64,000 nt of DNA from Aquimarina sp. AU474 (GTDB lineage: Bacteria; Bacteroidota; Bacteroidia; Flavobacteriales; Flavobacteriaceae), in NCBI RefSeq assembly GCF_900312815.1, contig NZ_OMPE01000006.1:1-64000 (forward strand), given 5' to 3'. Each line of letters opens with the position of its first letter. The stretch's first letter is position 1. Positions 119 to 16,574 of this stretch are shown one piece after another. Under the pieces are notes generated by a model. The model was not told the DNA's origin, did no database searches, and worked only from the letters and a program-made list of their open reading frames with translations. The position numbers were made by a program, and so were the translations under genes.

Positions 119-3100
119 TCAGTAATTGACATATATCATTTTTGTCTCGTAGTCCAGCCCCGATTCGTTGTAGTCTATCACACATACATAGGAGCCAACT
201 GGTACTCGCCCGCCTTTATGGGTGCCGTCCCAACCATCGCCCGGTCCCCCATAATGAGCGCTGAACAGCAAGCGTTGGCTTAGGTCATATATCTTCACTA
301 CGTTGTTCCCATACGCTTCAAGGCCCTCGATCACCAAGGTATCGCCAATGCCATCGCCGTTAGGAGAAAACCCTCTATTGAAATCCATAAGCGGCTCCTT
401 AGAGTTACTACAATTCCCGGTAGCAACGGTCACGATCTGCCCACAAGAAGCGGTATTTCCGGCATCATCAGTTACAATCCAGGTCACGGTAGTTTCTCCG
501 ATACCGAACTCATAGGTATCGGGATCTATATCTGTACCATTTACCTGGGCAACAACAGTGGTAACAGAACAGTTGTCGGCGGTAACAGGGGTTCCAAGGT
601 CGACAGTAGTGGTACAATCGCCAGTACCATTATCAGAAGCATTGGCCTCCACATCGGCGGCACATGTTATTGTTGGAGCAATAGTATCCACAACAGCTAC
701 GTTTACCAGCTGTGCCGCCAGATAGGATAAACTGTTTGTGCCCATGACCATATTGGCCGGTACATTGATGGTAATGTTGCCATCACAGAGCAACTCGGGT
801 ACAATGGTAACGGTATATGTCGATCCGCTCCCCGTAAAGTCGCTTACCATGGCATTAGCAACTTGGATACCGCACAACCCAAAATCCGTGACCTCATCAT
901 CGAATCTAATGTTTACCGTAAAGGGTTCTGAACCATCCACATTTTGCGGGGCATCAATAGTTGGCCTAGGAGGAGTACTGCCATCCGATATGGATCTAAA
1001 CCCACTCCATCCATTATCCAAATAAGCTTGTCTGGTGTCCATGGGCACTACAAGGTCTATTTGGTGACGGTTTGCATTTACAAAAGCAATTGCATCGAGT
1101 GCCGGTGGGGTATTGGCCCCTACTGTCACCAGGTCAAGGGTCGGATTGTTATAAAAGGCCTGAGACCCTATACTTTGAACACTGCCCGGTATGGTCACCT
1201 CTGTCAATAGGTTATCACTAAAAGCCATTTCCCCAATACTGGTGACACTGGATGGAATCTCAACACTAACCAGTTCGTTGTTTTGAAAAGCTTCTTCCCC
1301 GATAGCGATCACATCGTAGGTGTTCCCGCCATGATCCACCGTTTCGGGGATGATGACCGCTGTGGTTGTATCGCTATAGTCGACTACCATTACTTCTCTT
1401 GAAGAGGTAATGGCGTATTTGATGCCATCAATGGTAAAGTTTCCGAAGCTGATGGACCTGAACCCGCCCCACCCATTGTCCAAATAGGTCTGTCTGCTGC
1501 CCATGGGCACCACAACGTCTATTTGGTCACGGTCCGCATCTGAAAAGGCATCCTTATGGAGCGCTGGGGGATCGTTGGCCTCTACCGTTACCAAACGAAG
1601 ATCCGGGTTGTCCTCAAAAGCATACAACTCTATGGCTGTCACATTGCTAGATATGGTCACCTCTGTCAATTTGTTGGAGGAATAGGCCCATCTTGTAATC
1701 CTACTCACATTGCTCGGTATGGTCACACTGGTCAAGTTACTGTTCGAAAAAGCTCCCTCCTCGATACTGGTAACACTGTTGGGTATCTCAACACTTTCCA
1801 AGTTGTTGTTCAAAAAAGCACCCTCTCCGATACTGGTGACACCGGTAGGAATCTCGACACCGGTCAGTTGGTTATGTGCAAACGCATGATCTCCGATCTC
1901 GGTAACACCTTCAGGTATGGTGACCTCTGTCAATTGGTTGTCTGCAAAAGCACCTTTCCCGATCTTGGTGACACTTTCGGGAATGTGGACGGTGTTTAAT
2001 GTTCTGTCAATTGATTCCGGATCATCATCCCAAATCTTTGAATCCGTGTTCCGCATAGCATCATCCCCGATGGAGGTTACCAAATACTCCCCTCCAAAGT
2101 AGATTACCTTCGAGGGGATCTCCACGTGGCCCCCAGTGGGAACTCCATTAAGACCAATATGTCTGTGAAGCTCCACTTCATTGGGGGATGTCGATGTGAC
2201 TTCCCATATAAAGCCATTATTATTGTGTTCTTGTCCAATGAGCGAAAAGATATCATTAAAACCTGTCCACCCTGCATCTTTATAAGCTTGCACCTTGCCC
2301 TTGGGCACGATCACCTTTATTTTGTCGTGACGTTGTGGATACTCAAAGGCATCTTCATCGAGCATTGGTGGATCTGTGGAATTCAATGTCACGCGATTAA
2401 GGTCTGGCGAATGAAAGGCCTGAAACCCGATTCTTTTTACATTGCCTTGTATGATAACCGTTAGCAACGCACCTATGCCGCGAAAAGCACCATCTCCTAT
2501 AGCGGTCACTGGATAGGTACTCCCATCAATCTCCACCGTTGGAGGAATGGTCATATTAAAGCCTACACCACCTGCATTACCAATCACCGTTACTTCGTTT
2601 GGAGTGTCAATAATTCCGTACCTAACGCCATCCAAGTTGGTGACTCCGGAGGTAATATTCTCGAACCCTAAGTCCTTCCAGCCTGCATCTTCATAAGCCT
2701 GCATACTACCAAAGGGCACCACAAGATCCATTTTTATAAAGCTCGGGCCGAGAGGATGGCTAAAGGCTGTTTCATCAATTTCTGGTGGTGGATTGCGATA
2801 GGACCTCACAATGGGAATGTTTTGGCTTCCAAAAAAAGCGCCAGGCCCAATATATTCAACATTGGCTGGTATGTTCAACTCTTCTATACTGTTTCCGGAA
2901 AAGCCCCACCTCCTTATATGAGTGACACTGTTCGGTATTTCTACCTCGGTCAATTTATTGTTAGTAAAAGCCCCAAGTCCAATAGTGGTTACTGTGTTGG
3001 GTATGGTGACACGGATTAGCCCCTTTCCTATAAAAGGTCGAATAACACCACCTTGAAAAGTATCGGTATCTTCTCCAATGAGGGTCACTGCATAGGTTTC

Positions 3101-3316
3101 GCCATTATGAAGGACCGTTCCGGGGATATCCACCTCTGTGGCCGAACCCTCATAAACCACGATCCTAACTTCGGCTGTAGTGATTGAAGTAATTTCGTAG
3201 GTGATGTTATCATCGGTAAATTGGTCTCCTACATTTTGACCATAAACACTAAAGCCTGCCAATACTATAAAGATGGCAGACATTATCAACTGTAACTGTT
3301 TTTCCATTTTTGACAT
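119..3316 (-). CDS. Secreted BspA-like leucine-rich-repeat protein with HYR domain and type IX sorting domain
   Basis: This 1065-residue protein begins with a signal peptide (about residues 1-27, ending VYGQ). Most of it is BspA/LRR_5-type repeats of the form 'VTIPxxVTxIGxxAFxxNxLTEV', broken several times by a conserved 'VVPxGxxQAYxDAGW' segment. It continues with an Ig-like segment, a HYR domain near residues 865-960 ('DTIAPTITC', 'TVTWIVTDDAGNTASC'), and a C-terminal gliding-motility/CHU_C-like sorting domain with 'FSPNGDGIGD'. Such proteins are exported by Sec, then displayed or released by the type IX system. Binding or adhesion is an inference; no catalytic residues are visible. Met4 is an alternative start. 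The gene is clearly richer in GC than everything to its right, suggesting transfer or unusual codon use. No gene is seen between it and base 1. Confidence 0.9.
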   Translation of the reverse strand: MSKMEKQLQLIMSAIFIVLAGFSVYGQNVGDQFTDDNITYEITSITTAEVRIVVYEGSATEVDIPGTVLHNGETYAVTLIGEDTDTFQGGVIRPFIGKGLIRVTIPNTVTTIGLGAFTNNKLTEVEIPNSVTHIRRWGFSGNSIEELNIPANVEYIGPGAFFGSQNIPIVRSYRNPPPEIDETAFSHPLGPSFIKMDLVVPFGSMQAYEDAGWKDLGFENITSGVTNLDGVRYGIIDTPNEVTVIGNAGGVGFNMTIPPTVEIDGSTYPVTAIGDGAFRGIGALLTVIIQGNVKRIGFQAFHSPDLNRVTLNSTDPPMLDEDAFEYPQRHDKIKVIVPKGKVQAYKDAGWTGFNDIFSLIGQEHNNNGFIWEVTSTSPNEVELHRHIGLNGVPTGGHVEIPSKVIYFGGEYLVTSIGDDAMRNTDSKIWDDDPESIDRTLNTVHIPESVTKIGKGAFADNQLTEVTIPEGVTEIGDHAFAHNQLTGVEIPTGVTSIGEGAFLNNNLESVEIPNSVTSIEEGAFSNSNLTSVTIPSNVSRITRWAYSSNKLTEVTISSNVTAIELYAFEDNPDLRLVTVEANDPPALHKDAFSDADRDQIDVVVPMGSRQTYLDNGWGGFRSISFGNFTIDGIKYAITSSREVMVVDYSDTTTAVIIPETVDHGGNTYDVIAIGEEAFQNNELVSVEIPSSVTSIGEMAFSDNLLTEVTIPGSVQSIGSQAFYNNPTLDLVTVGANTPPALDAIAFVNANRHQIDLVVPMDTRQAYLDNGWSGFRSISDGSTPPRPTIDAPQNVDGSEPFTVNIRFDDEVTDFGLCGIQVANAMVSDFTGSGSTYTVTIVPELLCDGNITINVPANMVMGTNSLSYLAAQLVNVAVVDTIAPTITCAADVEANASDNGTGDCTTTVDLGTPVTADNCSVTTVVAQVNGTDIDPDTYEFGIGETTVTWIVTDDAGNTASCGQIVTVATGNCSNSKEPLMDFNRGFSPNGDGIGDTLVIEGLEAYGNNVVKIYDLSQRLLFSAHYGGPGDGWDGTHKGGRVPVGSYVCVIDYNESGLDYETKMIYVNY

Positions 3317-6917: not shown

Positions 6918-8042
6918 TTACTTTGGTGTCTCATTTTTGAATAATCCTTTAGTTTTACACTCCTCTAAAAAAACACTCTTAATAAAGCCATAACTGGATA
7001 AAGGAACTTTCTTAGCATCTTTCAATTGAGCCTTGTAATAAGATTCTGCATCATTAATTTCTGATAATTCCGTTGCATTCTCAAATTCATCAATGATAGA
7101 ATCAAACCAAGCTTTACCCTCGCTTGGACTGCATAAAAGAGCTTTATACCTTTCTTCCATTCCAAAAACTCTTAACCATGTATCAACATGTTCGTCATAA
7201 CCAGTCGCTTCTATCTTTAGATCGATTTCACTAGGCCTTAAATTAATTATGTCTTTGGATTTCAAGTCAATCTTTATTTCAATGTTAGGATGTGATTTGG
7301 CATATGGAAAGAAGGCTAAACTCCGATGAGTTTCTTTAATTAATGGGTCTATTTTTTTTACATCATTATTGTAAATAGGAACCTTGGACAGCTTGTATGT
7401 TGAATTACACTCGTGACACATAGGTGCTAGGTTCTTAAAATTCAAACTATTAAAAGGGTATAGTCCTTTTGGAATGTAATGATCATAAGCTTCTCGATAG
7501 CTATGGTTGTTCCCTTTAAGATGATTGATCCCGCAAAATGGACAAACCTCTTTATTGTTTGCCTCCATAAACTTAACATCATACTCTGCAATCAATTTAT
7601 CATTTAAAAAGCCGAAAACTTTCAAATTAAAAGGAGAACTGCTCCCATAAATTCTGCCATAGAACGATTTTAATGCTTTAGCTAGATCTGGGTATTGTCT
7701 TTCTATATCATCATAAGTAATAGGTAAAGAGGATTTGTCTTCACACAATTTCTTTATATTGTTATTTGCCTTATATGCTTTGATCAGGTCTTTCTTAAAT
7801 TTATCGTCTTTAATCTTTACAAACTCATCGAAAATCCAAGCTATTCTCCCATTAAAGAAATTTCCCCACTCGGTATCGTCAATTTCCAGTTGAATACAAA
7901 TGTCGTACAGCTCCTTATTGCCTTTAAGCTTTCTATAATTGAAATTTCCTTTAGCAACAATCCAAACGTTATGGAATAAAAAGTCCAGATACTCCTGAAG
8001 TTTTTCAATATGATGTGGTATATGCTTGTAGGTAAATAACAT
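6918..8042 (-). CDS. HNH endonuclease, PtuB-like, last gene of the restriction operon
   Basis: A 374-residue protein with an HNH nuclease core at about residues 166-214: zinc pair C167/C170 ('CPFCG'), the catalytic 'YDHYIPKGLYP' with D187-H188, and a second pair C209/C212 ('CHECN'). HNH domains cut DNA (or RNA) with a metal ion. The 'DHYxPKxxYP...NLAPMCxxCN' layout recalls the PtuB nuclease of Septu and retron-Ec78 defence systems, although this protein has longer N- and C-terminal parts (about 160 residues each). Its start overlaps the stop of the ATPase gene (TAATG), so the two are translationally coupled. I infer that it is the effector of an ATPase-nuclease defence module attached to the type I system. 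Target and trigger are unknown. Confidence 0.8.
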   Translation of the reverse strand: MLFTYKHIPHHIEKLQEYLDFLFHNVWIVAKGNFNYRKLKGNKELYDICIQLEIDDTEWGNFFNGRIAWIFDEFVKIKDDKFKKDLIKAYKANNNIKKLCEDKSSLPITYDDIERQYPDLAKALKSFYGRIYGSSSPFNLKVFGFLNDKLIAEYDVKFMEANNKEVCPFCGINHLKGNNHSYREAYDHYIPKGLYPFNSLNFKNLAPMCHECNSTYKLSKVPIYNNDVKKIDPLIKETHRSLAFFPYAKSHPNIEIKIDLKSKDIINLRPSEIDLKIEATGYDEHVDTWLRVFGMEERYKALLCSPSEGKAWFDSIIDEFENATELSEINDAESYYKAQLKDAKKVPLSSYGFIKSVFLEECKTKGLFKNETPK

Positions 8043-9868
8043 TATTTAATCGCTTCAATTTTATCCATTATCTTATTGACGAACAGCACTCTCTCAACAG
8101 AGTCTCCCATTTCTGATTTGACTTTTACTATCAATTTCTCCAAGCTCTTCTTCGACTTGAGCCTTTTCAATTCTTTATCAAACTCATTTAATCGCTGCTG
8201 CGCATACTCTCCAATCGTATTTGGCATCTCAAAAATTCGGATACCAATCTTATTAACAGAAGTACCAAACGTTTGAAAACCTGGGCGTAAATTCTCAATC
8301 ACTTTTCCTGTTTCTCTGTCTTTCTTGAATACATGGACATACTCACTTCTGCTATCTGAAATAAGATAAGGTGAGTGTGTCGTGATCAACATTTCACGCA
8401 TTGTTTCTTCACTTGACTTTTCCTCTTTGCTGAAACAATTTCTTAGACTTGTTACAAACTTGGCTTTCCAGTCTGGATTAAAGTGCGTCTCAGGTTCATC
8501 CATTAGAAATAAGCTACGTGTATCTTTAAACAGTAGACAAAGTCCAAGGGAATGAAGAAATTGATGTTCGCCATCTGACAGCGATTTTGTAAAAATCGTT
8601 TCCTTAAGACCTTCTTTTTTAATGTGAAAATCCTTGAATCGAATGATTCGATCTAACTCATTTGGTCGAAGACTGATGTCTTGATTCAAGAACATATTCT
8701 GCGAGCCATAAATATTTGTTTTCTCCTTAATGCTTACCTTGTACAAGTCTTGAACAAGAAGTAATTGGAATAATTCAAACAGTTTTAAAGGATCATGTTC
8801 AAAATGAAATTGGAATGCTTGTTTAGTCGCATCATTGACCTTATAGTCTAGAACCAAATGTTTACTGTCATCAAAGTATTCTTCTAAATCATCCTCCTCT
8901 CGGTACGTGTCATAATTCTGTTGTTCATACCACGAAGAAGCACATCTCTTTAATTTTTCGATATAAGACCGAATGAACACAGAATCTTCACGGTCTTTCA
9001 AATCCAAATTACGAAGAAGATTCACTTTCGATTCGAATGTTGATTTCGTTTTAACATCTTCATCGTCATCTTGGTAACCTGTTATGTTCATGTTGATATC
9101 CTGCCGAATTACCAATCGGAAGGAATCAACGTCAGTTAAACCAACATAGTTCATGAATGGCTCAAGAACCTTTTTCTTGTCAGGGTATTCGATAGAATCC
9201 CACATTAAGAGGTTTGTCAACAAGATGGCTTGGCTATATGATTCTTCGAGATATACAAGTGAAGCCTCTGGGCTGGGACTAACAAACTCTTGAGTTGCTA
9301 ACCCACTTACGTATTCATCGAATTGTAGGAATCGACTTTTGAAGAAGGGCAGACTCAACGTTTCATTGTTTCCAGATGCATAACCCACAACATATTCGGG
9401 CAATAGAAATTTGATTTCCTTTTGAGAAAGTCCTTCTAATTCTGGTGATCGAAACTCAGCTTCATTCACCCATTTAACGATTGGCCTTTCACCAGCCTTC
9501 TTTTCAATAGAAACATGCACTTTCTTGGTTCTGTCGAAATCTCCAAAGTCCTTATCGAGGAAAGTGAAATATTCTAAATCATAGGCATCAATCCGTGATA
9601 CCTTAGGGTCAAATCCCTTTGGGTTCTTCTCACTCTTATAGAAATAGTTTGGTTTGTATGCTAAATAAATGCAATCTAAGTGGAAGAATATTTCAGCTAA
9701 CGCTTCCAATACATTGGACTTTCCACTTCCATTGGATCCTGCGAGTAAATACGGATTAAAATCCGATGCCAAAGAATAATCGAAATCCCTTAGAAAGTAA
9801 ATTTCAAATTCTTTTGGTAAGGACCTGAAGCCTTCCTCTTGGTTTATTTTAAGCCTTAAAAGCTTCAT
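8042..9868 (-). CDS. Restriction-associated AAA/ABC-type ATPase (PtuA-like)
   Basis: This 608-residue ATPase has an SMC/Rad50-like head. It carries Walker A GSNGSGKS at residues 44-51, ABC signature SLSDGEHQ at 429-436, Walker B LFLMDE at 453-458 continuing DEPETHFNP, and the H-loop THSP at 497-500. The approximately 370 residues between Walker A and the signature are acidic and partly helical, and a basic helix closes the protein. It belongs to the AAA_15/AAA_21 group that pairs with effectors in OLD, Septu and retron systems, where ATP hydrolysis is thought to gate a partner nuclease. It begins 20 bases inside the end of hsdS and ends on the start codon of the HNH gene, so it is made together with the restriction subunits. 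Confidence 0.85.
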   Translation of the reverse strand: MKLLRLKINQEEGFRSLPKEFEIYFLRDFDYSLASDFNPYLLAGSNGSGKSNVLEALAEIFFHLDCIYLAYKPNYFYKSEKNPKGFDPKVSRIDAYDLEYFTFLDKDFGDFDRTKKVHVSIEKKAGERPIVKWVNEAEFRSPELEGLSQKEIKFLLPEYVVGYASGNNETLSLPFFKSRFLQFDEYVSGLATQEFVSPSPEASLVYLEESYSQAILLTNLLMWDSIEYPDKKKVLEPFMNYVGLTDVDSFRLVIRQDINMNITGYQDDDEDVKTKSTFESKVNLLRNLDLKDREDSVFIRSYIEKLKRCASSWYEQQNYDTYREEDDLEEYFDDSKHLVLDYKVNDATKQAFQFHFEHDPLKLFELFQLLLVQDLYKVSIKEKTNIYGSQNMFLNQDISLRPNELDRIIRFKDFHIKKEGLKETIFTKSLSDGEHQFLHSLGLCLLFKDTRSLFLMDEPETHFNPDWKAKFVTSLRNCFSKEEKSSEETMREMLITTHSPYLISDSRSEYVHVFKKDRETGKVIENLRPGFQTFGTSVNKIGIRIFEMPNTIGEYAQQRLNEFDKELKRLKSKKSLEKLIVKVKSEMGDSVERVLFVNKIMDKIEAIK

Positions 9869-11552
9869 CAGTCAATCTTAATTTTATTCTGTTATCATTT
9901 TCATCAAAGTACTGATCCACTATCGGAGGGTTTACTTCTATGAATTTAAAGAGATGTTTCTTGTAAACTTCATATTCGAAATCTTTCCCTTTAGGGATGA
10001 AGTATTCATTAAAATCTGCCTCTACTTGATCTAAATCGAAAGGTTCTTTCTTGTATCGGCCTTTCAGAAAGAACTGCCAGAACAATTCTTCTTCTACAAA
10101 GTCAGTCTCGATCGAATAGTCTGAAGCATAATTCTCCATTTGAATTTCTTCGGGCATACCTATGAAATCCAGATAGGTCATTTTTGAGATGTCGATCTTC
10201 TCGCGTTTTGGATCTTTCTTTTTAGGGCTAAATTTTTCTACTTCTTTGTTTAGTTGCTCTTCGAATGTTTCGGGAGTTTCGACTTTATCAGTTGAAAATG
10301 CTCTTGTTTCTTGAATTAAAATATTGCTAATATCTATTTCATCTCCCTTTTTTGGATTTAGAATCCGTTTTTGTATCGTCCTGTTAAGTTCAACTAGTTC
10401 ATCAAAACTTTTATAGGCAACCTTCTTAAGTAACAAAACTTTATCTACAATTTCAGCGAATTGTTTTTGAGCTTTTGGAGAAGGAACGATTATTTCCAAT
10501 TTCTCCAATTGATCTTTTGTTATTGCTTCACGAGTAGCACCTCCTATAGTAGCAATCCGAATCAAGTGTTTTTTGAAATTATCTGAGCATAACAAGTAGT
10601 TCAAGAAATTTGGATTCAACTTAGAGTCTTTGACTCTAATAATGGAAACATGCTGGTTTACTCTAGCTGGTAATATGCTATCTGGAACAACTGTACATCT
10701 GCAAACAGACGCTCCTGTGATGTTGAACAGTACATCTCCACTGTTAACAATCACATTTTTTAGCTTTTCAGCTTGATCATTATCAATACGAGCAAGGTTC
10801 TTCACCTTGAATCGATAATCATGAACATTAAGACTCCTTATCAAAGAAATCCCAACAGTTTTATACGATTCTTTACCTCCTCGTGGTGTTGAGCCGCTAC
10901 CGATTTTTAACGTAAGATTTTCCAAAACATCTGTCTTCCATCCTTTATCATTAAATACAGGATCTCCAAACATTTCAAGAAAAGTAGATTTAAGAAATTT
11001 CTCAAGCAGAGAAATACTTTCTTTTCTTTTAGAGATCAACTTTTCACTATCTGCAAATATTTTAGCAATTCTCTTTTGATCTCCAATTGAAGGTAGGTCA
11101 AATTCAATTTGATTCAGGTTTTTACGAGAAATTCTTTTACGAGTTGTGCCTGTTACATGTCGATTGATCTCCCTTCTAAAAATGTCGTTATTGATTAGAA
11201 ACTTCAGAAATGGAGGATGTACTTCTGAGTTATTAGGTCGAATCACACAGACATCTACTACAGTAACGGCTTTTTGATCTAGACCAGGAAAGATACAGGC
11301 TCTTCCTATGGGGTCAGGCATTCTTGCAACAAGAATATCTCCCTTTTGAAGATATGTACATTTTAATTTTTCAGCTTTTGCCTCGGTCATAAATCGACTA
11401 GACTTATTGATGAATGCTCCATCACCAATATCAGCTAATTGAATCAAACGTACACCCCCAGAAGGATCCTGATCTTTACTTTCTATCCAATCCCCATCTG
11501 TAAAAACTCCTTCAGGGGTAATTAAATCACCAATTGTTTTCAATTTCCCCAT
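9849..11552 (-). CDS. hsdS: Type I restriction-modification specificity subunit with C-terminal extension
   Basis: HsdS reads the two halves of the target site for both the methylase and the nuclease. The first target-recognition domain spans about residues 1-155, the first conserved helix 158-197 ('DQKRIAKIFADSEKLISKRK'), the second recognition domain 200-355, and the second helix 360-400. Beyond a usual HsdS length lie about 165 extra residues: a charged linker (402-455) and a folded-looking acidic segment (456-567, 'MTYLDFIGMPEEI', 'EEELFWQFFLKGRY'). I cannot assign that segment; it may dock HsdR, HsdM or the downstream ATPase. The start overlaps the hsdM stop (TAATG) and the end overlaps the ATPase gene by 20 bases. 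The recognised sequence cannot be deduced. Confidence 0.92.
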   Translation of the reverse strand: MGKLKTIGDLITPEGVFTDGDWIESKDQDPSGGVRLIQLADIGDGAFINKSSRFMTEAKAEKLKCTYLQKGDILVARMPDPIGRACIFPGLDQKAVTVVDVCVIRPNNSEVHPPFLKFLINNDIFRREINRHVTGTTRKRISRKNLNQIEFDLPSIGDQKRIAKIFADSEKLISKRKESISLLEKFLKSTFLEMFGDPVFNDKGWKTDVLENLTLKIGSGSTPRGGKESYKTVGISLIRSLNVHDYRFKVKNLARIDNDQAEKLKNVIVNSGDVLFNITGASVCRCTVVPDSILPARVNQHVSIIRVKDSKLNPNFLNYLLCSDNFKKHLIRIATIGGATREAITKDQLEKLEIIVPSPKAQKQFAEIVDKVLLLKKVAYKSFDELVELNRTIQKRILNPKKGDEIDISNILIQETRAFSTDKVETPETFEEQLNKEVEKFSPKKKDPKREKIDISKMTYLDFIGMPEEIQMENYASDYSIETDFVEEELFWQFFLKGRYKKEPFDLDQVEADFNEYFIPKGKDFEYEVYKKHLFKFIEVNPPIVDQYFDENDNRIKLRLTDEAFKA

Positions 11553-13213
11553 TAGAATAGTTTTTTCAGCTCTTTTAATCCATCAACTATTTCCTTTTCT
11601 AGACCACCTTTTCCGTCTTTGCCTATAAGGCGTTCCAAAATGTCTTCTGGTTTATCATATTCAATCTCTTCGAACACTTCTTCATGGTAGCGAGAGAAAC
11701 TTAAATCGTACCCTTCATCTACAATCTCCTGCTTCGAAACAAAGAAGTGTTTAATTTTTCTATTGTTATCCTTTTTTGGGTTTGCCTTTTCGTATTGCTG
11801 AATAATTTCTTGAAGATCACCGTGATCATCTGCTCCACCTTTTAATTTAAGCGGAGTACGTTTGTCATCCATACTATACCCATCACTCTCCATGTCATAG
11901 AACCAGACATTATCTGTTTCACCACCTTTTGTAAAGATTAAAATAGCAGTACTTACACCAGCATACGGTTTAAAAACACCACTTGGCATGGAGACAACAG
12001 CCTTCAACTGAGATTTTTCAATCATTAACTTTCTAGCATCTTTAAATGCCTTACCTGAGCTAAACAAGACTCCTTGAGGAATAACGATTCCTGCAGTTCC
12101 TCCAGACTTGAGCATGTTAAAAATTCGTTCTATAAATAGAAGTTCAGTCTTCGTTGTTTTAAGGTTAAGCTCTTCATTTATATCTCCCTTATCTACATTA
12201 CCGGTAAATGGAGGGTTCGCTAATACAATGTCGTAATCACCAGTTTCATGATAGCTTTTGCTTAAAGTGTCTTTATAGTTAATCTGAGGGCTATCAATCC
12301 CATGCATCATCAGGTTCATTAGGCCTAATCGAACCATAGTTTGATCAATATCATATCCTCGAAGGTTCTTTCCTATAATTTCTTTGACATCCTCTGTCAA
12401 TTTAGCACTTACACTTGTACGGATAAAACCATCTTCATCAGGTTTTACCTTCTTCAATTCTTTCTTATCGTTCAAGTGAGTAACCATATACTGATATGCA
12501 CCTAACAAGAAACCTCCCGTACCACATGCGGGATCTGCAATTTTTTGCTTCCAAGTTGGCTTAACCATTTCAACTAATAACTTAATGATGTGCCTAGGGG
12601 TTCTGAACTGTCCATTTTTACCAGCGCTAGCTATTTCCTTTAATAGCATTTCATATACGTCCCCTTGAATGTCTTGGAAATCCTGTCCTTTTTCGTCTGC
12701 ATCTTTATCAATCTCATCAAAGATGTCATCAATACTGCTTATCGCTTCTTTTAAAAGAGAGGGTTTCGGAATGATGAACACAGCATTGGCCATGTGCTTA
12801 GAAAAAGGAGAATCTGTTTGGTCAAGTTCTTTTATAAAAGGAAAAGCATAACGTTGCACATGTTCCAACATGGCATCGGTTTTTGTAATTCGTTTTATTT
12901 GACTCCACCTCAAGGAATTCTTATCAACTCCTTTGTCCTTCAGTATTTTTTCAATTTCTTTCTTAGTAGCGTCCTCCTTAGGCCTATCTGCCGGGAGCAA
13001 ATAAACACCTTCGAATTTTGACTTGTATTCATAACCAAAATCTTTAGCATTGGCCATTTCATTTAGATCGTTATCGTCCAATTTTTTCATGAACAACAAA
13101 TAAGTGATTTGCTCAATCGCTGTCAATGGATTTGAGATTCCTCCACTCCAGAATTTTTGCCAGAGGTCATTTATTTTTGATGCAATTGCTGGGTTGCTAC
13201 TTATTAAGCTCAT
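11552..13213 (-). CDS. hsdM: Type I restriction-modification N6-adenine methyltransferase subunit
   Basis: HsdM transfers a methyl group from S-adenosylmethionine to adenine in the site chosen by HsdS. An HsdM N-terminal helical domain covers about residues 10-150. Then follow 'QFRTPRHI' (202), the SAM-binding motif DPACGTGGF (227-235), and the catalytic NPPF (333-336, in 'DIVLANPPFTG'). Its 553 residues are normal for the family. It sits two bases after hsdR and overlaps hsdS by one base. All key residues are present, so modification should be active, protecting the host against HsdR. Confidence 0.95.
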   Translation of the reverse strand: MSLISSNPAIASKINDLWQKFWSGGISNPLTAIEQITYLLFMKKLDDNDLNEMANAKDFGYEYKSKFEGVYLLPADRPKEDATKKEIEKILKDKGVDKNSLRWSQIKRITKTDAMLEHVQRYAFPFIKELDQTDSPFSKHMANAVFIIPKPSLLKEAISSIDDIFDEIDKDADEKGQDFQDIQGDVYEMLLKEIASAGKNGQFRTPRHIIKLLVEMVKPTWKQKIADPACGTGGFLLGAYQYMVTHLNDKKELKKVKPDEDGFIRTSVSAKLTEDVKEIIGKNLRGYDIDQTMVRLGLMNLMMHGIDSPQINYKDTLSKSYHETGDYDIVLANPPFTGNVDKGDINEELNLKTTKTELLFIERIFNMLKSGGTAGIVIPQGVLFSSGKAFKDARKLMIEKSQLKAVVSMPSGVFKPYAGVSTAILIFTKGGETDNVWFYDMESDGYSMDDKRTPLKLKGGADDHGDLQEIIQQYEKANPKKDNNRKIKHFFVSKQEIVDEGYDLSFSRYHEEVFEEIEYDKPEDILERLIGKDGKGGLEKEIVDGLKELKKLF

Positions 13214-13214
13214 A

Positions 13215-16010
13215 TTATGCTGCGAATTTTTCTGTTAATGCTATAATTTCTTTTATTTCTTGTGGAGAGAAAATCCCTCGTATTCCTTTTGGGTGAATAA
13301 TTGTAAATGGAGCTTGAATTAATGCTCGTTTCTCAATGTTCCCTCTTTCAATGATGTAATCTTTTAACAAGTTCAAGAACTCAATTTGCCTCGTGGAAAG
13401 GTTAGTGTGTTCTTGAATAAATTGTTGAACTGCCTTCGTCACTTGCTCATCAAAACTTTCTAAGATTTCTATTCCTAAAATGTGACGAATGAATTCAATG
13501 AATTTTGCCTGCTGGTGTTTGTAAACCTTTCTTAAAAGACTCTCTGTAATGTGAGGATCTTCATCGTGCAGATCATCTGCGAGTTGTTGAGATTCTTCTT
13601 CCGTTACTGCTCCACCAGATTTAATTTTTTGCAGTATCTGATTTTGTTCAGTTAGTTCTGCTATTTTGGCTTCAACCATTTCACGGTATTTTGAAATACT
13701 TACCGCTTCGTTTTGAGGTCCAAACTCAACCATTTCTTTGGTCTGGATAATATCTTTTAAGTCCAATTTTGAAGGCCCGTCAGTTTGGATTCGTTGCTCT
13801 CTGAACTTGATAATTGGTGCAATCGTTTCTGCTAACTCATCTAAACTTTCATCGTCTATATCTGACCAAAACTGACTAGTTAGGACTTGTTTGATGTAAG
13901 CTTCATGCCTTGCAACAATGTTTATTGAAAGAGGTAATTCACTAACTACAGTAATGATATTCTCTTTCAGCGTATCAAACTTTTCTTCTTCCTCAGATAA
14001 ATGAGCTAGACTAATTTCCAATACATCCTTTTTAAATCGCATTGCCTTGAAATCGGTTTGAGACAATGTTCTAAACAATGGTTTTATAGTATGTCTAAGG
14101 AACTCAATTCGCTCCGTTGAAAGATGGTTCCAGAATTCTTCTTGTTCAACTTTCGCCAATTCAGGTTTAGCGTCTTGTATTACTACAGATTTAGCTGGTA
14201 AAGCCTTTATCTGTTCTTTCAGAATTTCGATTTCCTTATTCGCTATTTCTAGTTCATCTTTTTCAATAGCTACTTCAATCTTGTCAATCCTTATTCCAAT
14301 AAATCGAACTGGCAATGGTATCTGTGCTTTTAATTCTTTTCCCTTTGGATTTAATTTAAAGTATTCAAAGTTATCCCAACAGTCCATGATGAGGAAGCTG
14401 TCTTTTTCTGGGCACCATGGTTTCATTTTTGTAGGCTCTAACAATCGAGTTCCTCTACCTATCATTTGCCAGAACTTAGTATAGGAATACACAGGTTTTG
14501 CGAATACTAAATTTACCAGTTCCCTAACGTCAATTCCTGTATCCAACATATCAACGCTCACGGCAACCCTTGGCATATCATTATGCGTGAATTGATGCAA
14601 TAAACCGCCTTTACCATAAACACGTGGATCATCAGATACGATCACTTTTGCTAGTTCCCCAGCATATTCTGGATATAAGGAGTCAAATATTTTTTCAATC
14701 CGTCTGGCATGTGCTTTTGTGGAACAAAAGAATATTGTTTTTCCAGGAAGGACACCATTCGGATCTTTTATACATTCTTCCATAAACTCTTTAACAATTG
14801 TAACATTGGTTCCCTTGTTAATGACCGATTTTTCGAGGTCAGTTCCTTCAAAATTAATTTCTGCAACCTCCTTTCCATCAAGGATCAAATTCTTTTGATC
14901 TTCAAGGCTAATCGTTCTTTTACTTATTCCTTCTTCCTGAAACTTTGTTTGGATTTTCATTACTTGAAAATCGCACAAATAAGGAGGGACATTATTTACT
15001 GCTTCCTCATAGGAATAGGCAAACGTAGGTATACCATCTTCACATTTAAAAAGCTTAAATGTATTATGGTCAATAACATCAGTTGGTGTTGCGGTTAACC
15101 CAAGTGTTATTGTATTGAAGTAGTCCAGTACTTCCTGATATGTATTGTAGATTGATCGATGACTTTCATCAACTACTATCAGATCAAAAAAATGAGGAGA
15201 TAAAGAATACTCTTCATCTCTAATAATGTTCAGCATTGTGGGGTAAGTAGCTGTATAAACCTTTCTGTCTTTAGCTATTGTTTTCTCTCCAACTTTTGGC
15301 CACCTTGGTTCATTTGGAAGATGTTCCTTAAATGCTTCTAAGGCTTGATTTCTAAGGGCTATCCTATCAACTAAAAATAAGATTCGTTCAGCCCATCCAG
15401 CACTCATCAGTGCATCAACCATGGCAATAGTGGTCCTAGTTTTACCCGTCCCTGTTGCCATTACTAATAGAAATTTCCTTCTCTTCTTTTCGATTCCTTC
15501 CATTACAGAACGTATCGCATGTATCTGGTAATCTCGTCCAGCGACATCCGTATTGATCAGCTCACGAGCAAGTGGTTTTCTATTCTTTCTAATGTACAAG
15601 TATCGCTCAAGATCATCACGAGTCGGAAACCCAACAACCTTTCTTGGAGGGTAATTACCTAAGTCCCAGAAATATATTTCGTGTCCGTTTGTATAAAAAC
15701 AAAAAGGAAGTTCACCACCAGATTCTTTCTGAATATTGTGACAATATTGTTTAGCTTGCTCTCTCCCAAGTTCAGCGTTTACAGAAGTCTTCTTCGCTTC
15801 AACAACTGCTAAAGCATTTCCATCTTTCCCATGTAGAACATAGTCCGAATATTGATGACCTTGATACGGGGTTTGAGGCTCATTAACTCCTTCAGGAAGA
15901 CCTACATTAATATCATACTCAACTGATACCTGAGTACGATCATTAATGTTCCAACCAGCTTCATGCAGTTGTTTATCGATTAGTTCTTTCCTTGTTTTAG
16001 CCTCGTTCAT
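13215..16010 (-). CDS. hsdR: Type I restriction endonuclease subunit (translocase/nuclease)
   Basis: HsdR pumps DNA with ATP and cleaves unmodified DNA away from the site. The N-terminal PD-(D/E)xK nuclease reads D56 ('YSDYVLHG') and E71-A-K73 ('VVEAKK'). The superfamily 2 motor has ATGTGKT (185-191), DESH (281-284), GLTATP (304-309) and the motif VI-like 'QMIGRGTRL'. The last third matches the helical EcoEI-type R C-terminal region. At 931 residues it is full length with no broken motif. The gene starts two bases after the XRE regulator gene and is followed immediately by hsdM, so restriction and modification are co-expressed. The order R-M-S puts the toxic subunit first, which makes upstream control important. 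Confidence 0.95.
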   Translation of the reverse strand: MNEAKTRKELIDKQLHEAGWNINDRTQVSVEYDINVGLPEGVNEPQTPYQGHQYSDYVLHGKDGNALAVVEAKKTSVNAELGREQAKQYCHNIQKESGGELPFCFYTNGHEIYFWDLGNYPPRKVVGFPTRDDLERYLYIRKNRKPLARELINTDVAGRDYQIHAIRSVMEGIEKKRRKFLLVMATGTGKTRTTIAMVDALMSAGWAERILFLVDRIALRNQALEAFKEHLPNEPRWPKVGEKTIAKDRKVYTATYPTMLNIIRDEEYSLSPHFFDLIVVDESHRSIYNTYQEVLDYFNTITLGLTATPTDVIDHNTFKLFKCEDGIPTFAYSYEEAVNNVPPYLCDFQVMKIQTKFQEEGISKRTISLEDQKNLILDGKEVAEINFEGTDLEKSVINKGTNVTIVKEFMEECIKDPNGVLPGKTIFFCSTKAHARRIEKIFDSLYPEYAGELAKVIVSDDPRVYGKGGLLHQFTHNDMPRVAVSVDMLDTGIDVRELVNLVFAKPVYSYTKFWQMIGRGTRLLEPTKMKPWCPEKDSFLIMDCWDNFEYFKLNPKGKELKAQIPLPVRFIGIRIDKIEVAIEKDELEIANKEIEILKEQIKALPAKSVVIQDAKPELAKVEQEEFWNHLSTERIEFLRHTIKPLFRTLSQTDFKAMRFKKDVLEISLAHLSEEEEKFDTLKENIITVVSELPLSINIVARHEAYIKQVLTSQFWSDIDDESLDELAETIAPIIKFREQRIQTDGPSKLDLKDIIQTKEMVEFGPQNEAVSISKYREMVEAKIAELTEQNQILQKIKSGGAVTEEESQQLADDLHDEDPHITESLLRKVYKHQQAKFIEFIRHILGIEILESFDEQVTKAVQQFIQEHTNLSTRQIEFLNLLKDYIIERGNIEKRALIQAPFTIIHPKGIRGIFSPQEIKEIIALTEKFAA

Positions 16011-16012
16011 TA

Positions 16013-16231
16013 TTAATCATTCTCCAATTTCAAATCACTAAACACTTCCTTAAACATTTCTCCCGGATCAATATCAATTGCCAAAGCAATTAGATACAAT
16101 TCATCTGCACGTAGTTTTGTCGATTCATTTGAAGTCAACTGAGAAAGTCGAGCTTGACTGATTCCTGTTCGCCTGGAAACCATTGCTCTATTCACAGATT
16201 TCTTAGTAAGATATAGTCCTAAAGATGTCAT
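16013..16231 (-). CDS. XRE-family HTH regulator heading the restriction operon
   Basis: A 72-residue protein that is almost only a helix-turn-helix domain: 'VNRAMVSRRTGISQARLSQL' followed by 'TSNESTKLRADELYLIALAI'. It resembles short C-protein-type or XRE repressors that delay restriction-gene expression. It is the first gene of the operon and is separated from hsdR by two bases. Facing it upstream are palindromic TTTAGAnnnTCTAAA sites (16279-16347), which I infer it binds, autoregulating the whole six-gene unit and possibly the divergent small gene at 16371. Confidence 0.88.
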   Translation of the reverse strand: MTSLGLYLTKKSVNRAMVSRRTGISQARLSQLTSNESTKLRADELYLIALAIDIDPGEMFKEVFSDLKLEND

Positions 16232-16294: not shown

Positions 16295-16331
16295 TTTTGT
16301 TTTGGATTTAGATAGATTATCATTAGATTTG

Positions 16332-16347
16332 TTTAGAAAATCTAAAG
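16332..16347. promoter_or_regulatory. Putative XRE operator O2
   Basis: TTTAGA-AAA-TCTAAA followed by G repeats O1 with only two bases changed, both in or beside the spacer. Centre-to-centre distance from O1 is 53 bases, about five helical turns. A lone TTTAGA half-site at 16307-16312 lies midway between them. O2 ends about 24 bases before the ATG of the divergent gene. Confidence 0.62.
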
Positions 16348-16370
16348 AATTATTTATAAAGTATAATGAT

Positions 16371-16574
16371 ATGAGCAAAAGATATACCAAAGCAGATTTA
16401 GAAGAAATTGTATATAAGCAATTAGATAATCTAAACGCAATGCATGATTTGTTACGAATTATGAAAGTCCAAAATGACCTAATCCAAAATATCAATCAAA
16501 CGCTCAGAAAGGAAATCGGTCAATTCAAAGAGCAACAGGTAATGTATCCGACTAGAAGAAAGTCAAAATCGTAA
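16371..16574 (+). CDS. Small basic helical protein divergent from the restriction operon, 67 aa
   Basis: I do not recognise this protein. From the ATG at 16371 it reads 'MSKRYTKADLEEIVYKQLDN', then a predicted amphipathic helix ('LNAMHDLLRIMKVQNDLIQN') and a lysine/arginine-rich tail. An upstream TTG at 16302 would lengthen it but would run through the operator array, so I prefer 16371. It sits alone on the plus strand, inside the direct repeats that bound the restriction island and next to operator O2. A role linked to the island (for example antirestriction, regulator partner or structural helper) is conjecture. Confidence 0.55.
   Translation: MSKRYTKADLEEIVYKQLDNLNAMHDLLRIMKVQNDLIQNINQTLRKEIGQFKEQQVMYPTRRKSKS

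Follow-up and report, generated by a model that had tools for sequence, protein, structure and literature searches.

The type I restriction-modification locus of Aquimarina sp. AU474 encodes a specificity subunit, HsdS, that ends in a winged-helix domain, and this tail seems to tie the methylase to a Septu-like pair of an ATPase and an HNH nuclease. The locus lies in a stretch of 64,000 nucleotides (positions 1 to 64,000 of contig NZ_OMPE01000006.1, hereafter the window) from a genome of 4.84 Mb in 11 contigs. Its six open reading frames (ORFs), all on the minus strand, encode an XRE regulator, HsdR, HsdM, HsdS, the ATPase and the HNH protein in that order. In the explanation that best covers the whole, which we judge about evenly balanced between right and wrong, the HsdM2-HsdS complex (M2S) would carry and gate the ATPase-HNH effector through the HsdS tail, and HsdR would be an optional second effector. 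The gene order is conserved, the tail is exclusive to the ATPase in the loci examined and covaries with it, and loci without HsdR keep the ATPase and HNH motifs.

The genes of the operon are separated by gaps of 2 bp and 1 bp and then overlap by 1 bp, 20 bp (HsdS/ATPase) and 1 bp (ATPase/HNH), and the ORF listing agrees in strand, coordinates and spacing with a preliminary description of the window. Stoichiometric control of the operon, also suggested there, is something we can only infer from gene overlap. The gene content confirms a complete type I restriction-modification system with an EcoAI-like HsdR, whose restriction activity is predicted: HsdR contains nuclease and helicase motifs, HsdM motifs I and IV, and HsdS two target-recognition domains. 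Against NCBIfam NF046051, HsdR scored 283.6 bits, under the cut-off of 550; it is among the 54 of 55 HsdR proteins longer than 850 amino acids (aa) in which the nuclease motif was found by pattern. The motifs listed earlier for the last two genes are intact on reading the sequence, with GSNGSGKS, LSDGEHQ, DEPETH and TTHSP in the ATPase and CPFCG, DH and CHEC with N in the HNH protein.

The ATPase is a clear member of TIGR04435, 'restriction system-associated AAA family ATPase' (682 bits in NCBIfam, cut-off 300), so its tie to restriction loci has already been named. Its likeness to PtuA is seen in PADLOC, where PtuA1 gave an expectation value (E) of 2.5e-50 and AriA a far weaker 1.1e-15, both among the best 25 of 87 PADLOC rows, and in the PDB, where it matches 7 distinct sequences (E 7.9e-6 to 0.0096) that bear the names PtuA or retron/AAA ATPase. 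In the case of the HNH protein, which matched no Pfam family above its cut-off, structure alignment of the predicted model revealed the PtuB fold with an HNH site. This similarity comes from a second structure aligner and not from Foldseek, which gave 9 matches with the HNH model, none better than E 5; HNH-profile matches in PDB sequences were weak and were taken for chance. While the likeness to PtuA and PtuB expected in the preliminary description was thus recovered, strict membership is unsupported because the NCBI equivalog cut-offs were far from reached (55 bits against 500 for NF041760, PtuA; 13.2 bits against 150 for NF041761, PtuB). The ATPase is PtuA-like, and the HNH protein is, by its predicted fold, an enlarged PtuB-like nuclease. 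The nearest named relative of the ATPase among the best 80 of 464 relatives is from Lacinutrix, a flavobacterium (65% identity), and a search of phage records returned no match at E 1e-10.

An ATPase profile scan of one genome per species yielded 464 confirmed relatives, and the best 80 were taken as survey loci (numbered with L). They span 12 named phyla, with 28 loci in Bacteroidota and 26 in Pseudomonadota. Upstream of the ATPase gene, hsdS is present in all 78 loci where this side is visible, the other two being cut by contig ends; downstream, the HNH gene is present in 79 of 79, the remaining locus ending at a contig edge. The S/ATPase junction is -4 in 40 loci and -20 in 13 (together 53 of 78), and the ATPase/HNH junction is -1 in 48; at the extremes, about 1.3 kb separates hsdS from the ATPase gene in L096, and the called ORFs overlap by 235 bases in L084. 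No core gene beyond R, M, S, ATPase and HNH is common, the most frequent other cluster occurring in 8 of 80 loci; such clusters presumably correspond to names such as rhuM, DUF1016 or KilA-N. Among 395 Bacteroidota genomes, with three candidates scored per genome, an over-cut-off ATPase was found in 8, all with S and HNH adjoining; this sample shares at least three loci with the 80 (L002, L003 and L005, equal to L061, L073 and L079), and one of its loci is the window. Because order and near-zero spacing recur in 12 named phyla, the adjacency of hsdS, ATPase and HNH is not chance, and the survey upholds, together with Pfam and NCBIfam, the earlier view of an intact PtuAB-like pair joined to a complete type I system within one operon.

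Below the family cut-off the picture is mixed. Of 22 sub-cut-off relatives given as loci, 15 were fetched; 6 of these show the order hsdM-hsdS-ATPase-nuclease and 9 are away from hsd genes. Three distant nucleases escaped the strict HNH pattern and were read by eye. Hence, when the neighbourhood is asked whether homologues lie mostly away from hsd genes, which the preliminary description would have taken as a sign of chance adjacency, the family itself passes in all 78 visible loci, and the wider family does not in the 15 fetched. Four distant relatives (L161, L163, L164 and L166) combine hsdM-hsdS-ATPase with a small HNH-type nuclease and have no HsdR match in the locus; the C-terminal ends of HsdS in L161 and L164 look by eye like a helix-and-wing tail. 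In Pectobacterium sp. PL152 (L083, 3000-12605), hsdR, hsdM, hsdS and HNH are fragmented and the ATPase frame is whole. The S-ATPase-HNH part of a Citrobacter locus (L063) was matched in 11 of 5426 complete E. coli genomes, in 10 over at least 80%. In E. coli Br_167_kylling (L191, 9051-11839), ATPase and HNH genes stand behind an IS3 insertion without hsd genes, and this orphan ATPase is shortened (annotated 566 codons versus 596 in L192). In L132 (7398-7742) and L134 (316-660), a 114-aa ORF fuses the start of HsdS to the end of HNH beside an intact hsdM, as if a single deletion had removed the ATPase along with most of S and most of HNH and left this scar.

In the predicted structure, a flexible linker leads from the HsdS core to a C-terminal winged-helix domain; the mean pLDDT (predicted local distance difference test) of the linker is 40-59 for residues 411-450, 78-84 for 451-470 and 53 for 471-480. 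The tail was found in 79 of 79 ATPase-linked HsdS proteins, including 44 of 44 held out of the tail model. It was found in none of the 32 HsdS-like controls, which come from loci lacking the ATPase. A strong tail match (E 2.3e-5 or better) occurs in 8 of the 395 Bacteroidota genomes, and it is these same 8 that encode an ATPase above the family cut-off. Alignment A5, which holds HsdS from 71 of 78 loci plus the window, had short or odd ORFs dropped. When 35 tails were compared with Pfam, 23 families were matched, each by just one member, and matches of the tail profile to PDB sequences were weak and were taken for chance. In L136 (6683-8473), which has no ATPase gene, a 596-aa HsdS is extended at its C-terminus by about 218 aa of unrelated sequence; other HsdS tails, such as this one, may dock other partners.

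We compared tail distances with those of the other parts in the 51 of 57 HsdR-containing loci that have all parts. The rank correlation with the tail was highest for the ATPase (0.57), followed by HsdR (0.51), HsdM (0.45), HNH (0.39) and the HsdS core (0.37). The tail-ATPase link persisted after HsdM and HsdR were removed (partial r 0.37, 0 of 500 permutations), while the tail-HsdM link was gone once ATPase and HNH were removed (-0.03) and the tail-HNH link once ATPase, HsdM and HsdR were removed (-0.13). With HsdM and HsdR corrected for, the evolution of the tail follows that of the ATPase. The HsdS tail seems made to hold the ATPase-HNH pair, with the winged helix as the putative dock.

HsdR is present in 57 of the 80 loci. 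Of the other 23, 15 are cut by contig ends, one (L066) has neither M nor R, and 7 lack HsdR while keeping HsdM, HsdS, ATPase and HNH (L054, L070, L091, L102, L104, L108 and L109). L104 is from Pedobacter foliorum and L108 from Flavobacterium beibuense. More than 6.7 kb upstream of hsdM is free of hsdR in six of these seven loci, and L070 has 3.1 kb. At E 1e-10, no homologue of the window HsdR was found in the genomes of L070, L091, L104, L108 and L109, nor in that of L066, and only distant matches of 30-31% identity in those of L054 and L102; applied to 8 control genomes that contain HsdR, the same search recovered it in all of them, at 62-79% identity. Both L070 and L066 come from metagenome bins, which may be incomplete. 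In all seven loci the ATPase Walker A, Walker B and H-loop, the HNH residues and HsdM motif IV are intact, and HsdM motif I is a variant in five (L070, L102, L104, L108 and L109). On the ATPase tree, which includes 12 of the 15 distant loci and has long branches outside the family, the HsdR-less label requires 4 changes, at least 3 of them forced by well-supported branches. A Priestia plasmid carries M, S, ATPase and an HNH-profile match; HsdR is missing from its gene table, an intentionally incomplete listing beyond which no search was made. The S subunit of this plasmid ends in some 115 residues of tail, which score only 7.6 bits with the tail model.

Several neighbours of these loci were recorded. 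In L054 (3630-6782) a 1050-aa SIR2-domain protein occupies the hsdR position before hsdM-hsdS-ATPase-HNH, and in L102 (5416-7001) an AbiEi/AbiEii pair directly precedes the operon. L066 (7204-12751) consists of S, ATPase and HNH, the 8.5 kb upstream of hsdS holding neither hsdM nor hsdR; the ORF ahead of these genes resembles an integrase.

We propose that M2S would be the sensor that carries the effector, in which the flexible linker and winged helix of HsdS would dock the PtuA-like ATPase and the docked ATPase would in turn hold the PtuB-like HNH nuclease. When M2S is on correctly methylated self DNA, the effector would be restrained. Unmethylated or disturbed targets, such as foreign DNA or a phage anti-restriction protein, would cause the ATPase to switch, and the HNH nuclease would then cut phage DNA, or tRNA with cell arrest as in some PtuAB, while the same sensor would also have HsdR as an optional second effector. 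Such gating has precedents in retron-Eco7, where PtuAB is neutralised by RT-msDNA (reverse transcriptase with multicopy single-stranded DNA; PMC11555353), and in PrrC, which is silenced by the bound type I enzyme EcoprrI (PMC2610378, PMC12707154). As for the target, the Septu EcB88 cleaves tRNA-Tyr in infected cells (PMC13096335), and another Septu is reported to act on DNA (PMC13096335, PMC11555353). The option, raised in the preliminary description, that HsdS/HsdM serve as the sensor gains support because the tail was found only in ATPase loci and because hsdR-less loci exist. A broader statement, that a type I methylase complex senses for a PtuAB-type effector through a dedicated winged-helix dock on HsdS and that ATPase-HNH replaced HsdR entirely in several lineages, giving an 'R-less type I' immunity that reads DNA methylation and responds through an ATPase-HNH nuclease, is put forward tentatively, with somewhat less than an even chance of being right.

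Four points weigh against carriage and gating by M2S. Three of the 8 Bacteroidota genomes with both tail and ATPase supplied sequences to the tail model. A weaker tail-HsdR link remains (0.19, 2 of 500 permutations), and linkage of adjacent gene ends may account for part of the covariation. Furthermore, the ATPase signature is SDGEQQ in three of the HsdR-less loci (L104, L108 and L109).

The alternative that survives best, which we nevertheless consider rather unlikely, is a guard like PrrC, in which a latent suicide ATPase-HNH is silenced by the whole restriction complex and freed only when a phage inhibitor disables that complex. PrrC in EcoprrI behaves in this way (PMC2610378, PMC12707154), and both the deletion scars of L132 and L134, from which the ATPase is gone, and the shortened orphan ATPase of L191 fit the need for a partner. 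However, since HsdR is absent from 7 loci, its inhibition cannot be the general trigger, and these loci argue for M2S as the sensor. The earlier proposal that the pair fires when restriction is inhibited therefore fails as a general rule if HsdR activity is meant, and it may hold for a guard on M2S. An improbable alternative is that the winged helix gives HsdS an additional means of binding DNA and that ATPase-HNH is an independent Septu sharing the operon. LmrR-type winged helices do bind DNA, and the 9 fetched relatives away from hsd genes agree with independence, but in none of the loci examined is the tail present without the ATPase, whose evolution it follows, and none of the 78 visible loci has an ATPase-HNH pair without HsdS. 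Finally, chance or defence-island adjacency of the type I system and the pair has next to no likelihood, for although defence genes cluster in islands and some of the loci have AbiE, SIR2 or integrase-like genes beside them, order and overlaps are fixed across the 12 phyla, and the 80-locus survey rules it out.

Features of the operon and its surroundings in the window, with coordinates and supporting evidence
Feature	Coordinates	Strand	Evidence
XRE/Cro-type helix-turn-helix regulator, first gene of operon, 72 aa	16013..16231	-	Pfam HTH_26 34.7 bits, cut-off 22
Divergent 90-aa ORF, probably small gene of regulatory module	16302..16574	+	ORF listing
HsdR, type I restriction subunit, EcoAI-like, 931 aa	13215..16010	-	Pfam ResIII, EcoEI_R_C, HSDR_N
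HsdM, N6-adenine methylase, 553 aa	11552..13213	-	Pfam N6_Mtase 205.8 bits; DPACGTGG, NPPF present
HsdS, 567 aa, whole gene	9849..11552	-	Pfam
HsdS core, aa 1-403, two target-recognition domains and coiled coils	10344..11552	-	HsdS fold
HsdS linker, aa 404-481, predicted partly disordered	10110..10343	-	pLDDT
HsdS C-terminal winged-helix domain, aa 482-567, candidate ATPase dock	9852..10109	-	
PtuA-like ATPase, TIGR04435 restrict_AAA_1, 608 aa	8042..9868	-	NCBIfam 682 bits; Pfam AAA_21
PtuB-like HNH nuclease, enlarged, 374 aa	6918..8042	-	predicted fold; motifs

A close copy of the XRE regulator precedes hsdM in L109 (Aestuariivivens insulae; phmmer 3.5e-39), and the 90-aa ORF recurs there in the same divergent position with 90.5% identity over 74 aa, so that operons that have hsdR and operons that lack it share one control module at their front. 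Elsewhere in the window (119-3316, minus strand) lies a repeat-bearing protein of 1065 aa, whose repeats resemble leucine-rich repeats of the BspA type and whose C-terminal domain is presumably sorting-like.

Each component is of a known kind, and the ATPase is already named for its restriction company (TIGR04435). The docking-type domain of HsdS, the strictness with which it accompanies the ATPase, and the forms lacking HsdR are new and were not found in print; a literature search for an hsdS-ATPase-HNH operon or an HsdS tail domain found none, and Krishnan 2020 may describe part of the association. The tail, the HsdR-less forms and the existing family were also absent from the preliminary description. 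Two arrangements of PtuAB-type effectors are known, one in which they stand by themselves (Septu) and one in which a reverse transcriptase controls them (retron I-A). If the proposal is true, a third kind of control would be the type I methylase, a widespread bacterial sensor of self and non-self, and one sensor may govern two ways of stopping viruses. The role of accessory ATPases in hsd loci is an old question that the last 86 residues of HsdS make simply testable, and the HsdR-less operons are natural minimal versions of the system.

Compared with known systems, the name of TIGR04435 lacks the HNH partner, the HsdS tail and the HsdR-less forms, and no use of the accession or the family phrase was found in the literature searched. 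Stand-alone Septu (PtuAB) has the same two enzyme types, whereas the pair described here falls short of its equivalog cut-offs and is always with hsdS in the 78 visible loci. MADS likewise joins type I-like M and S to an AAA ATPase, and the NCBIfam scores here lie far below its cut-offs (MAD2 129 of 720 bits, MAD3 17.6 of 420, MAD5 67.8 of 400). In comparison with PARIS (AriA-AriB), the partner is an HNH protein and not the TOPRIM nuclease AriB. An RM repressor study (PMC12255303) describes four genomes in which genes for an AAA-like ATPase and a putative RNA-binding protein sit between hsdS and hsdR; this pair differs in position within the hsd locus and in partner. The OLD-ABC + nuclease backup modules of a BREX survey (PMC12839542) are similar in that ABC ATPase-HNH dyads are attached to a modification system as backup effectors; the subject of that survey is BREX, and for RM-like systems it refers to Krishnan 2020. 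Retron I-A (Ec78/Eco7, Ec83) also combines a PtuA-like ATPase with an HNH protein of PtuB-like fold, and its effector is held back by a separate sensor module (PMC11555353), as proposed here. It differs in that our operon has a type I methylase as partner, that none of the six operon proteins matched a reverse-transcriptase family in Pfam, and that the matched PtuB chains have 205-250 residues, compared with 374 aa in the HNH protein. PrrC of EcoprrI is similar in that an ABC-type ATPase and a nuclease are tied to, and silenced by, a type I locus (PMC2610378). However, no PrrC family appeared in the Pfam or NCBIfam results for the operon proteins, and while PrrC is one protein with an Arg-Glu-His anticodon-nuclease domain at a type Ic locus, the system described here consists of two proteins with an HNH nuclease, and HsdR can be absent from it.

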